Shown in pieces: positions 59,108-64,000 of a stretch of 64,000 nt of DNA. How positions within the stretch are numbered: position 1 is the first letter of the stretch; each line of letters opens with the position of its first letter. The DNA is from Anaeromyxobacter paludicola (GTDB lineage: Bacteria; Myxococcota; Myxococcia; Myxococcales; Anaeromyxobacteraceae). A model generated the notes under the pieces. That model was not told the DNA's origin, did not search any database, and saw only the letters and a program-made list of their open reading frames with translations. Location of the stretch: contig NZ_AP025592.1 of assembly GCF_023169965.1 (NCBI RefSeq), positions 620,001-684,000 of the forward strand. The letters are read 5' to 3'. The translations under genes and the position numbers were made by a program.

Positions 59108-60049
<942 letters not shown>

Positions 60050-60066: not shown

Positions 60067-61005
60067 ATGGGCAGGAAGATCCTCATCACCGGCGGCGCCG
60101 GGTTCATCGGATCGAACGTGGCGGATCGCTTCGTCGGGGCCGGCTGGGACGTCGCCGTCATCGACGACCTCAGCTCCGGCAAGCGGGAGAACGTGCCGGC
60201 GGCAGCCCGGCTCTACCCCTGCGACGTGCGCAGCGCGGCGGCGGCCGAGGCCATCCGCAAGGAGCGGCCCGACGTGGTGGCGCACCTCGCGGCGCAGATC
60301 GACGTGCGCAAGTCGATGGCCGACCCGCGCCACGACGCCGACGTGAACCTGGGCGGCCTGCTCAACGTGATGCAGGCGGCGGTGGCGGCGGGCTCGGTGA
60401 GGCACGCGCTCTTCGCCTCGAGCGGCGGGGCGATGTACGGGGAGACCGATCACGTCCCCACGCGCGAGGACGAGCCGCCGCACCCGGTCTCGCACTACGG
60501 CGCCGCCAAGACCGCGAGCGAGATCTACCTGGGCGTCTACCGGGCGAGCCACGGCATCACCTCGACCGCGCTCCGCTTCGCCAACGTCTACGGCCCGCGC
60601 CAGGATCCTCACGGCGAGGCCGGGGTGGTCGCCATCTTCGCCGGCCGGCTGCTCGAGGGCCAGCCCTGCACCATCTACGGCGACGGGACCCAGACGCGCG
60701 ACTACGTGTTCGTCGAGGACGTGGCGCGCGCCAACCTGCTCGCGGCGGAGCGGGGCCACGACGGTCCGCTCAACGTCGGCACCGGGATCGAGACCGACGT
60801 CAACCGGCTCTACGCCGTCCTCGCGACGGCCGCCGGCAGCGCCGCGCCGCCGAGGTACGCGCCGGGCCGCGCCGGCGAGCAGCGGCGCTCCTGCATCGAT
60901 CCGTCCGCGGCCCGGGGCGCGCTCGGCTGGCAGCCGGAGGTGCCCCTCGAGGAGGGGCTGCGCCGCACCCTGGAGTGGTTCCGCCAGCGTCGCGCGGCGC
61001 CCTGA
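60067..61005 (+). CDS. UDP-sugar 4-epimerase family (GalE-like extended SDR)
   Basis: 312 aa from the ATG at 60067 after GAGGGGG. The NAD loop is TGGAGFIGSNV, the Ser strand FASSGGAMYGE and the catalytic pair YGAAK. RFANVYGPRQDPHGEAGVV and YGDGTQTRDYV are as in UDP-glucose/UDP-N-acetylglucosamine 4-epimerases. It might epimerise UDP-xylose or UDP-glucuronate, given its neighbour, but GalE-type enzymes vary in substrate. Confidence 0.85.
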   Translation: MGRKILITGGAGFIGSNVADRFVGAGWDVAVIDDLSSGKRENVPAAARLYPCDVRSAAAAEAIRKERPDVVAHLAAQIDVRKSMADPRHDADVNLGGLLNVMQAAVAAGSVRHALFASSGGAMYGETDHVPTREDEPPHPVSHYGAAKTASEIYLGVYRASHGITSTALRFANVYGPRQDPHGEAGVVAIFAGRLLEGQPCTIYGDGTQTRDYVFVEDVARANLLAAERGHDGPLNVGTGIETDVNRLYAVLATAAGSAAPPRYAPGRAGEQRRSCIDPSAARGALGWQPEVPLEEGLRRTLEWFRQRRAAP

Positions 61006-61078: not shown

Positions 61079-61909
61079 ATGGCGTCACGAACCGGCAGGA
61101 CCACCACCGATCACGACGAGATCCGGCGCTGGGCGGAGGAGCGCGGCGGGAAGCCCTCGGAGGTGATGGGCACCGAGCGCGGCGGCGGCACCGGGATGAT
61201 CCGGATCGACTTCCCCGGCTACTCCGGCGAGGGCTCACTGCGCGAGATCTCCTGGGACGAGTGGTTCCAGAAGTTCGACGAGAGCGGGCTCGCCCTCGTG
61301 CTCCAGGAGCGGACGGCGGGCGGGCAGCGCAGCAACTTCAACAAGCTCGTGGCACGCGAGACGGCGGAGTTGCGCGCGCGCGGCGGCCGCGGCAGCGCCC
61401 GCCGGGGCACCGGCCGGGAGCGGCAGGGCGGGTCGGGCGCGGCGAGGTCGCGCGGCGCGGGCGGCGGACGCGGCGCCGGCGCGGCCGCGCGGTCCCGCTC
61501 GGCGGGCGCGGGGTCCCGGTCCGGCGGCCGGTCGCGGTCGGGCGCGACGTCCGGGTCCCGCGCCGGCGGCCGATCGCGGTCCGCCGGCTCCAGCGCGGGA
61601 TCCCGGAGCAGCGCCCGGTCTCGGTCCACGGGGTCGAGCGCGGGGTCCCGCTCCGGCGGCGCCTCGCGCTCCTCGGGGTCGCGCTCCGGCGCCCGGGCGA
61701 ACTCCACCCGCTCGCGCGGCGGCACGCGCAGCGCGCCCCGCTCCGAGGCGGCACGGACCGCGCGGCGCGGCGGCGGCTCCAAGGCTGGGGGCGCGCCGGC
61801 CGGGCGCGGCACCTCCCGGAAGGGCGGCCAGGGCCAGGGCCAGGGCCGCTCGAGGTCCGGCTCGCGCTCCGGGTCGCGCACCACCGGCCGCGGCGGGAGG
61901 CGGCGGTAG
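61079..61909 (+). CDS. Conserved small-domain protein with long Ser/Arg/Gly-rich basic tail
   Basis: 276 aa, with a strong AAGGAGG site. Residues 1-100 form a compact domain (DHDEIRRWAEERGGKPSEV, then IRIDFPGYSGEGSL, ISWDEWFQKFDESGLALVLQE and NFNKLVARET) that exists alone in many bacteria as an uncharacterised small protein. From about residue 100 to the end the protein is low-complexity Ser/Arg/Gly/Ala with repeated RSRS, SRSGG and AGSRS units, like RNA- or DNA-binding tails. The function is unknown; nucleic-acid binding is inferred. Confidence 0.75.
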   Translation: MASRTGRTTTDHDEIRRWAEERGGKPSEVMGTERGGGTGMIRIDFPGYSGEGSLREISWDEWFQKFDESGLALVLQERTAGGQRSNFNKLVARETAELRARGGRGSARRGTGRERQGGSGAARSRGAGGGRGAGAAARSRSAGAGSRSGGRSRSGATSGSRAGGRSRSAGSSAGSRSSARSRSTGSSAGSRSGGASRSSGSRSGARANSTRSRGGTRSAPRSEAARTARRGGGSKAGGAPAGRGTSRKGGQGQGQGRSRSGSRSGSRTTGRGGRRR

Positions 61910-62479
61910 GTGGCGGGCTCGGGCGAGGAGCGGCTCAACCTGGACTTCGTGACCGACCGGCTCGCGGTGGGCGGCAGCTACCCCGAGCGGGACGCGGAGC
62001 GGCTCGCTCGGGAGCACGGGATCCGGCACGTGGTGGACGTGCGGGTGGAGGCGCGCGACGACGAGGCGGTGCTGCGCCGCTGCGGGGTGACCCTGCTCCA
62101 CCTCCCCACCGAGGACCGCTGCGCCATCTCGCTCGACGTGATCGACGACGGCGTGGGCTGGGTGCGCGAGCGGCTCGGGCGGGGGGAGCGGGTCTTCATC
62201 CACTGCGAGTACGGCGTGGGCCGGAGCGCGCTCCTGGCGCTCTGCGTGCTCGTCGCGGAGGGGGACGCGCCGCTGGAGGCGCTGGCGCGCGCCAAGTCGG
62301 CCCGCTGGCAGGTCTCGCCCAGCCCGGAGCAGCTCCAGGCCTTCCAGGTCTGGTGCCGGCGCGAGCAGCATCGGGCGGGGGCGGCCTGGCCCATCCCGAG
62401 CTTCGAGGAGCTCGCCGGGATCGCCTACAGCCACCTGCGCCGCGGCGAGGTGGGGACGGGCACGCTCCGCTCCGGCTGA
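61910..62479 (+). CDS. Dual-specificity/PTP-type phosphatase
   Basis: 189 aa from a GTG that directly follows the previous stop. The P-loop HCEYGVGRSA (catalytic C99, R105) is complete, and a general-acid Asp is probably in LPTEDRC at about 65. The preceding LNLDFVTDRLAVGGSYPERDA start is typical of DSP-like phosphatases acting on phosphoproteins, phosphoinositides or phosphosugars. Gene 62495 follows 15 bp later, suggesting one functional unit. Confidence 0.85.
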   Translation: MAGSGEERLNLDFVTDRLAVGGSYPERDAERLAREHGIRHVVDVRVEARDDEAVLRRCGVTLLHLPTEDRCAISLDVIDDGVGWVRERLGRGERVFIHCEYGVGRSALLALCVLVAEGDAPLEALARAKSARWQVSPSPEQLQAFQVWCRREQHRAGAAWPIPSFEELAGIAYSHLRRGEVGTGTLRSG

Positions 62480-62494
62480 CGCCCGCACGAGGCG

Positions 62495-64000
62495 ATGCGG
62501 GTCTACGGCGATCGGCTGCGGCGCGAGGCGCCGCGCGAGAAGCTCGCCCGGCTGGGCGCGCTCCTCGGCGACGCCCGCGCGGCCGGCGGGCGCGCGCGGC
62601 ACGACCTCCTGCTCGACGCGCTGGTGGAGGCGGGCGAGCTCGCGCAGGGGGTGCTCGACGCGCGCTTCGCGGCGGAGGGCGCGGACGGGCGCTCGCCGGA
62701 GGGAGACGCGGCGATGGCGCTCGCCGGCGGCGTGGCGCGGGCGCTCTGGAGCTCCTGGCGCTCCGGCTTCTCCCGGGTGGAGTGGCCGCCCGGAGCGCTC
62801 GCGCTGGCCGTGGCGCGCGCCGGGCTGCCCGCGACCGTCGAGGTGAAGGCGCCGGAGGGCTACGCCTTCTACGCGCTCTACCCCGAGGCGTACGGCGAGG
62901 CGGCGGAGGCGCTCGCCCCGGCGGGCGCGCGGCTGCGCGTCATCGGGCTGCGGAGCGTCGGCACCGGGCTCGCCGCGCTCGTCGCCGCCGCGGCGGGGGC
63001 CACGCGCGCGCCGGTGACGCTGCGGCCGGTCGGGCATCCCTTCGCGCGCCGGCTGGCGGTGTCGGCCGCCCTGGAGCGCGAGCTCGTCGGCGATCCCGAG
63101 GCGCGCTACGCCGTCGTGGACGAGGGGCCGGGGCTCTCGGGCAGCTCCTTCGCCGCGGTCGGCCGCTGGCTGGAGGCGCGGGGCGTCGCGCCGGAGCGGA
63201 TCCACCTCCTCCCCGGGCACGACGGCGAGCCGGGCGGCGTCAACCCCGAGGCCGCCGCCGCGTACCGTCGCTGGCCGAGGCGCGCGGTCTCCTTCGAGGC
63301 GCTCCACCGCGAGGCCGGCGGGATCGCGGCCTGGGCGGCCCCGCTCATCGGCCTGGCGCTCGAGCCGCCGCGGGACCTGTCGGGCGGCGCCTGGCGCGCG
63401 CTGGTGTGCGGGGCGCCGCCGTGGCCGCCGGCCGACCCGCCGCGCGAGCGGCGCAAGCTCCTCGTCCGGACGCGCGCGGGGCCGTGGCTGTTGCGCTTCG
63501 CCGGCCTGGGCCGCTCGGGCGCGGCGGCGCTGCGACGGGCCCGGGCGCTCGCCCGCGCCGGGTTCGCCGCCGAGGTGGCCGGGCTCGCGCGCGGGTTCCT
63601 GGTGCAGCGCTGGGTGGAGGCGCGGCCGCTCCCCCAGGCGGCGGTCCCGCGCGCCGCGCTCCTCGCCCGGGTGGCCGAGTACCTCGCCTTCCGCGCCGCG
63701 GCGCTGCCGGCCGGGGCGGGGGAGGGGGCCGCGCCGGGCGAGCTCCTCGAGATGGCGCGGACCAACCTCGCCGAGGGGGGCGAGGCGGCGGCGCTCCGCG
63801 CGCTCGAGGCTGCCGCCGCGCCGCTCGACGCCATCTCCGCGGGCGCGAGGCCGATCGAGGTGGACGGCAAGCTGCAACCCTGGGAGTGGCTCGTCGCCGG
63901 CGACGGCCGGCTGCTCAAGGCCGACGCCGTGGATCACTGCGCCGCGCACGACCTCGTCGGCTGCCAGGACCTGCTCTGGGACGTGGCCGGCGCCGAGGCG
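62495..64000 (+). CDS. Phosphoribosyltransferase-like / kinase-like fusion protein, 3' end outside window
   Basis: 502 codons are open to the window end without a stop, starting with the ATG at 62495. Residues about 165-260 carry a type I phosphoribosyltransferase pattern: VIGLRSVGTGL, RPVGHPF and the PRPP-loop-like VVDEGPGLSGSSF (207-219). The C-terminal part (about 320-502) looks like an aminoglycoside-kinase fold: LLVRTRAGPWLLRFAG as a beta-rich N-lobe, then DGKLQPWEWLVAG (from D457) and DLLWDVAGAEA, with the usual HxD loop altered. The reaction is unknown. It probably works with the phosphatase just upstream. Confidence 0.7.
   Translation, partial: MRVYGDRLRREAPREKLARLGALLGDARAAGGRARHDLLLDALVEAGELAQGVLDARFAAEGADGRSPEGDAAMALAGGVARALWSSWRSGFSRVEWPPGALALAVARAGLPATVEVKAPEGYAFYALYPEAYGEAAEALAPAGARLRVIGLRSVGTGLAALVAAAAGATRAPVTLRPVGHPFARRLAVSAALERELVGDPEARYAVVDEGPGLSGSSFAAVGRWLEARGVAPERIHLLPGHDGEPGGVNPEAAAAYRRWPRRAVSFEALHREAGGIAAWAAPLIGLALEPPRDLSGGAWRALVCGAPPWPPADPPRERRKLLVRTRAGPWLLRFAGLGRSGAAALRRARALARAGFAAEVAGLARGFLVQRWVEARPLPQAAVPRAALLARVAEYLAFRAAALPAGAGEGAAPGELLEMARTNLAEGGEAAALRALEAAAAPLDAISAGARPIEVDGKLQPWEWLVAGDGRLLKADAVDHCAAHDLVGCQDLLWDVAGAEA

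Follow-up and report, generated by a model that had tools for sequence, protein, structure and literature searches.

A PRTase–pseudokinase fusion and its neighbouring phosphatase gene as a candidate ribosylation system of a bacterial glycan cluster

Work on ribofuranose in bacterial glycans has so far followed two leads, HAD-type PRP phosphatases and UbiA-type enzymes (PMC11127046). The gPRT + PRP system of Klebsiella O4/O7 transfers phosphoribosyl from PRPP and then removes the 5-phosphate, with its genes in a glycan cluster and with PRP belonging to the HAD family of phosphatases (PMC11127046, PMC11231755). In Bcs3, the Haemophilus type b capsule polymerase, the counterpart is CriT/CrpP, where a PRTase-like core produces O-linked ribose-5-phosphate with a coupled phosphatase; CrpP is HAD-type, CriT has helical bundles, and both are part of one large polymerase polypeptide (PMC10299916). 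An earlier note on the DNA analysed here, made from sequence alone, had described a phosphatase beside a fusion of a PRPP-loop domain to a kinase-like domain and knew of no characterised pathway with such a combination, which overlooks the PRPP-dependent ribofuranosylation of glycans by gPRT + PRP (PMC11127046) and CriT + CrpP (PMC10299916).

We examined this locus in a 64,000-nucleotide stretch (the window; positions 620001-684000 of a 4.59-Mb single-contig Myxococcota genome), in which a phosphatase gene (PTP) is followed on the same strand by the gene for the PRTase–pseudokinase fusion (FUS). We propose a two-step ribosylation, which we regard as an even call. FUS would move 5-phospho-ribofuranose from PRPP to a hydroxyl group of an oligosaccharide that contains a cyclitol or xylose and is a product of the neighbouring glycan cluster; its kinase-fold domain, which would no longer phosphorylate, would probably hold the acceptor as choline and aminoglycoside kinases hold theirs; and the adjacent PTP would take off the 5-phosphate to leave a riboside. 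For many Proteobacteria, a histidine phosphatase encoded within the cluster or close to it would perhaps carry out the dephosphorylation instead of PTP. The same logic, PRPP-dependent O-ribosylation of a cyclitol-containing acceptor and then dephosphorylation, is that of BtrL/BtrP (butirosin). We favour the two-step scheme because FUS has a PRTase-like fold whose PPi-, hood- and PRPP-loop residues are invariant in 40/40 relatives, because its kinase fold has lost the catalytic Asp, because PTP recurs upstream and FUS is linked to and co-occurs with a glycan cluster, and because gPRT + PRP and CriT + CrpP set a precedent (PMC11127046, PMC10299916). Computation supports the two folds, the conserved PRPP site, the lost kinase residue and the links of FUS to the phosphatase and to the cluster; that FUS uses PRPP, that the linkage is through O, what the acceptor is and that PTP acts on the FUS product are inferred.

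FUS/PTP resembles gPRT + PRP in the expected order of PRPP transfer and phosphate removal within a glycan cluster, but the partner here, encoded by a gene of its own, is a Cys-based phosphatase of the DSP type (elsewhere perhaps a histidine phosphatase) rather than a HAD enzyme, and FUS carries a kinase-fold domain, which the cited passages describe for neither gPRT + PRP nor CriT + CrpP. To CriT/CrpP it is alike in its PRTase-like core and phosphatase coupling; it differs in having a kinase-fold domain where CriT has helical bundles, and in being two proteins instead of one polypeptide. Since its partner is not of the HAD family, and since a FUS profile run against all PDB sequence chains (solved structures only) gave no match at E up to 1 and thus showed no homology to a characterised gPRT or CriT, we do not file FUS as a gPRT + PRP member; by analogy, it may work like one. 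If this is right, the transferase architecture and the phosphatase fold would differ from those of the known systems, and the PRPP-then-phosphatase logic would be shared with them. A third architecture for bacterial ribofuranose would lengthen the list of non-Leloir sugar transfers. The fuller picture, an unnamed, laterally spread O-phosphoribosyltransferase family with a dead small-molecule kinase as acceptor module and a Cys-based phosphatase partner, ribosylating a cyclitol-containing oligosaccharide of a widespread cluster, is offered tentatively, with the chances somewhat against it. In that picture bacteria would have put together this route to ribofuranosylation independently, and surveys with the HAD phosphatase as their marker would have missed it.

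Table 1. Features of the PTP–FUS locus and its upstream neighbours (window coordinates)
Feature	Position	Strand	Remarks
UDP-xylose synthase-like SDR (UDP-glucuronate decarboxylase family), upstream neighbour	59108..60049	+	51% identical to annotated Ensifer-cluster UDP-glucuronic acid decarboxylase
NAD-dependent sugar epimerase-like SDR, upstream neighbour	60067..61005	+	ORF; conserved in genome G004 at 79%
PTP (phosphatase gene)	61910..62479	+	GTG start, 189 aa, ORF; compact DSP-type Cys phosphatase
HCEYGVGRS, active site of PTP	62201-62227	+	HCxxGxGRS invariant in 21/21 FUS-linked relatives
FUS (PRTase–pseudokinase fusion)	62495..64000 in window	+	ATG start; 502 aa in window, 551 aa total
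N-terminal helical region and type I PRTase-like domain of FUS	62495..63370	+	AlphaFold2 (AF2) model, Foldseek
RSVG, putative PPi loop	62951..62962	+	R and G (R153, G156) invariant in 40/40
RPVGHPFAR, putative flexible catalytic (hood) loop	63023..63049	+	R176, P177, G179, P181, R184 invariant in 40/40
VVDEGPGLSGSS, putative PRPP-binding loop	63113..63148	+	D, E, G, P, S, G, S invariant in 40/40
Choline-kinase/APH-fold domain of FUS	63380..64000, on to 64150	+	AF2, Foldseek
DGKLQPWEWL, counterpart of kinase HGDxxxxN catalytic loop	63863..63892	+	Catalytic Asp -> Lys, Asn -> Glu
KADAVDH, counterpart of DFG Asp region	63917..63937	+	K, D, D, H each in 39/40

The gene pair and the fusion reported from sequence are confirmed as genuine. 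The ATG of FUS lies 15 bp 3′ of the PTP stop codon, the spacing that the earlier note had given, and its frame is still open at the end of the window; the full 3′ end, which that note had called for, was obtained from the genome sequence and places the stop at window-equivalent 64150, ~50 codons beyond the window (complete gene, 62495-64150, or L009:6495-8150). The FUS frame is not a high-GC accident, since homologues ~35–53% identical over near-full length occur in several phyla and its PRPP site is invariant. Long antisense ORFs over the FUS/PTP region (904–921 aa) were set aside as high-GC shadow frames. Upstream, an ORF at 61079-61909 ends one base before the PTP start codon; its first 105 aa are ordinary and are followed by a low-complexity tail of Arg, Ser, Gly and Ala (88% together), and genome G004 has a 253-aa gene at the equivalent place.

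PTP matches the Pfam DSP-PTPase families PF22785 (E = 3.9e-11) and PF22784 (E = 4.3e-9), and is the one PF22785 match in the source genome. It has both the HCxxGxxR(S/T) site, given in the earlier note as HCxxGxxRS, and an upstream LHLPTxD segment whose Asp, the upstream general acid, is conserved in the FUS-linked relatives, as are the catalytic Cys and Arg among all 21 of these. Its relatives among PDB sequences are DUSP23 and microbial PTPs, with weaker matches to PTPMT1 and the phosphoglucan phosphatase LSF2. With DUSP23/PTPMT1 and Tc-R-P type DSP phosphatases it shares fold family, HCxxGxxRS site and Pfam match, and it differs from them as the operon partner of FUS.

This partnership recurs. 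PTP lies directly upstream of FUS on the same strand (gap −4 to 88 bp) at 21 loci, namely 19 of the 23 Myxococcota loci examined plus a Phenylobacterium and a Burkholderiales genome, and in Myxococcota it remains with FUS where FUS sits outside the glycan cluster. Mapped on the FUS tree, the PTP link needs eight changes, a number as low in only 4/500 shuffles. Near the other alphaproteobacterial and acidobacterial FUS genes, PTP is absent at the loci examined. Its lack beside most alphaproteobacterial FUS genes counts against the two-step scheme and, in part, against the reading of the earlier note, which had named relatives without the phosphatase link as a refutation; the conserved phosphatase–fusion pair for which that note proposed a survey holds for the 21 loci. 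Outside these, other phosphatases are found: in S. meliloti, Ensifer, Azospirillum and Roseomonas clusters a histidine phosphatase gene adjoins that for inositol-3-phosphate synthase, and in Methylobacterium another histidine phosphatase lies directly 3′ of FUS. The tie of the cluster histidine phosphatase to FUS is uncertain, because the same gene beside inositol-3-phosphate synthase also occurs in clusters without FUS alongside, and it may serve that synthase instead.

In the likeliest of the rival explanations, the phosphatase would serve the inositol phosphate produced by inositol-3-phosphate synthase and be a mere fellow traveller of FUS, with PTP and histidine phosphatase interchangeable in that role. 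The clusters that contain inositol-3-phosphate synthase divide accordingly, those of Phenylobacterium and Burkholderiales having PTP and no histidine phosphatase, and those of Rhizobiaceae, Azospirillum and Acetobacterales having a histidine phosphatase and no PTP. However, the Myxococcota PTP keeps with FUS even where FUS lies well away from the cluster, and a search of these genomes gave no close inositol-3-phosphate synthase. We consider this role rather unlikely; it can also be compatible with a ribosylating FUS.

We found the PTP–FUS pair within or bordering a conserved glycan cluster, which the end of the window cuts. The two SDR genes of Table 1 lie upstream, and beyond the window, on the opposite strand, a glycosyl-hydrolase-like protein (annotated beta-xylosidase in relatives) is followed by a TIGR04290 methyltransferase (E = 2e-106) and an ABC exporter. 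Next come two glycosyltransferases and a Gfo/Idh inositol-dehydrogenase-like protein, then a Zn-dependent dehydrogenase whose nearest relative is inosose dehydrogenase, a pair of sugar-nucleotide epimerases and, after these, further glycosyltransferases. FUS thus shares the glycan biosynthesis cluster location of gPRT + PRP, and lies inside such a cluster in Myxococcota, Acidobacteriota, Rhizobiaceae, Azospirillum, Roseomonas, Phenylobacterium and Burkholderiales. Its surroundings in three phyla have in common the TIGR04290 methyltransferase, glycosyltransferases, UDP-xylose synthase and inositol-dehydrogenase-like enzymes, to which the Proteobacteria clusters add inositol-3-phosphate synthase. 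FUS would offer a handle on this cluster, which occurs in soil bacteria and Myxococcota as well as in plant symbionts (S. meliloti pSymB); a literature search on the S. meliloti locus, on TIGR04290/TIGR04295 and on the name ‘rhizo-twelve’ for the cluster returned nothing useful.

Where FUS lies elsewhere in the genome, the cluster was still present in the genomes inspected. Among Myxococcota (n = 195 genomes), FUS occurs in 16 of the 18 genomes with TIGR04290 (Fisher p = 8e-14, uncorrected for relatedness), and TIGR04290 is present in 10/10 non-myxobacterial FUS genomes, even with FUS unlinked. Within one order (150 genomes), the three genomes with FUS are all among the eight with TIGR04290 (p = 1e-4, rising to 0.002 once the seed genome is left out). 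FUS is nevertheless an optional add-on of the cluster and not a core part of it, since TIGR04290 occurs without FUS (2 of the 18 Myxococcota genomes; 5 of the 8 in that order) and FUS without TIGR04290 (13 of the 29 FUS-bearing Myxococcota genomes, several of which nonetheless retain further genes of the cluster). The latter count weighs against the ribosylation reading.

An oligosaccharide containing a cyclitol or xylose is the probable acceptor. Inositol is supported as a part of it in Proteobacteria by the inositol-3-phosphate synthase of their clusters, and cannot be the general acceptor in so far as the source genome has no close match to that enzyme; a close one is likewise missing in all but 5 of the 195 Myxococcota genomes, which weakens any general link between FUS and inositol. 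One Myxococcota genome (G114, L082 5232-6494) has a divergent inositol-3-phosphate-synthase-like gene (30% identity) near FUS, below the phylum-wide search threshold. Azospirillum clusters (L089 5749-7053, L112 5743-7050, L127 5102-6394) contain a TIGR04295 B12-binding radical SAM protein, which suggests an unusual methylation or rearrangement in their product. Whole clusters including FUS are found on S. meliloti pSymB and in Ensifer (L087 8728-26685, L091, L108 6798-24572), where they add polysaccharide pyruvyl transferase-like and F420-hydrogenase beta-like genes.

Alternatively, FUS could ribosylate a non-glycan small molecule, base- or cofactor-like, at N or C, with the phosphatase giving a nucleoside-like product and the cluster being just a frequent neighbour. 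N-glycosides are the usual products of known PRTases with this fold, the Roseomonas cluster encodes a histidine phosphatase similar to alpha-ribazole phosphatase, and FUS lies away from the glycan cluster in several genomes. Its repeated occurrence in the same cluster across three phyla, and its co-occurrence with the TIGR04290 methyltransferase even when unlinked, argue against such a substrate, and we regard it as unlikely.

The two-step scheme depends on the N-terminal half of FUS acting as a phosphoribosyltransferase. An AF2 model was made for the Roseomonas rosea homologue on an 11-sequence alignment that included the window protein (pLDDT 89.8, pTM 0.90), and its N-terminal half was also modelled alone (pLDDT 88.6, pTM 0.90). 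Foldseek placed this half with the type I phosphoribosyltransferases, the best matches being uracil and adenine PRTases (UPRT/APRT; probability 1.00, E = 4e-3) and the top of the list mostly PRTases. Against the scheme count the modest significance of that E-value and the failure of PRTase profiles, including PF00156, to match any of 11 FUS members at E up to 1. A profile alignment gave a weak match to the genome’s own APRT-like protein (69%), agreed with the motif register in this half, and set VVDEGPGLSGSS onto the PRPP loop of the genome’s own PRTases. The loop, DEGPxxSGS, combines an acidic pair with a small/hydroxyl phosphate loop, as a PRPP loop does, with one extra residue between the two compared with the usual form; D208, E209, S214, G215 and S216 are invariant in 40/40 relatives. 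The PRPP-loop domain of the earlier note is thereby borne out in the predicted structure, and the PRTase site is apparently intact.

A third possibility, that FUS is a non-catalytic PRPP/nucleotide sensor controlling the cluster while the phosphatase acts independently, is very unlikely. PurR is a PRTase-fold regulator, and such a structure (7rmw) is among the Foldseek matches of the N-terminal half; both domains of FUS also descend from enzymes, with one now catalytically degenerate. Yet invariance extends to the Arg of the PPi loop, the D-E pair and the residues of the hood loop, which is more than should be needed merely to bind PRPP, and profile searches found no DNA-binding domain in FUS.

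By Foldseek, the C-terminal half has the fold of choline kinases and APH enzymes (LicA, 4r7b; E = 7e-8, probability 1.00), in keeping with the aminoglycoside-kinase-like domain with an altered catalytic loop that had been proposed from the sequence. The kinase homology rests on the fold, hhalign against the genome’s own APH proteins having failed. FUS is like LicA in fold and unlike it in that the catalytic Asp and the metal-binding Asn are replaced along the kinase-like loop DGKLQPWEWL...KADAVDH (63863-63937). In a register taken from the predicted strands after the loop, the catalytic-Asp position of HxDxxxxN (465 of the model) is R in 25, K in 12, T in 2 and D in 1 of the 40 relatives, and the metal-binding Asn position (470 of the model) is Glu in 37/40. 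With Arg, Lys or Thr in 39/40 relatives, the kinase site appears lost and phosphoryl transfer by FUS unlikely, so that this step in the pathway of the earlier note is not supported; its bifunctional fusion, with the kinase-fold domain an active transferase through alternative catalytic residues, is most improbable on these same replacements, even though D463, K481, D483, D486 and H487 are near-invariant and the beta-3 K/R could still allow a nucleotide to bind. Joined to a PRTase, such a pseudo-kinase would show instructively how the small-molecule kinase fold can be put to another use.

The novelty claimed for the fusion withstood domain searches: Pfam, NCBIfam and PADLOC gave no useful family match to the whole of FUS, and on these searches, together with that of PDB sequences, we rejected an assignment to any enzyme family already known or to any defence system on record. 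FUS is present in 29/195 Myxococcota genomes and in Methylobacterium, Skermanella, Roseomonas, Inquilinus, Phenylobacterium, one Burkholderiales genome and Acidobacteriota, so that its relatives span three phyla (Myxococcota, Acidobacteriota and Alpha/Betaproteobacteria). It is also carried on 89 plasmid records, mostly S. meliloti pSymB, plus Azospirillum, Rhizobium, Ensifer and Roseomonas. The source protein is about as close to Roseomonas (52% identity) as to members of its own family (45–48%), which suggests lateral spread. In Azospirillum ramasamyi, FUS and the glycan cluster are on two different plasmids of one strain (L111 12001-13761 and L127). The FUS of genome G058 has an insertion of ~33 residues, and one complete genome (G104:C1:9080274-9080447, L070) holds a ~58-residue FUS fragment that looks like a decaying gene.
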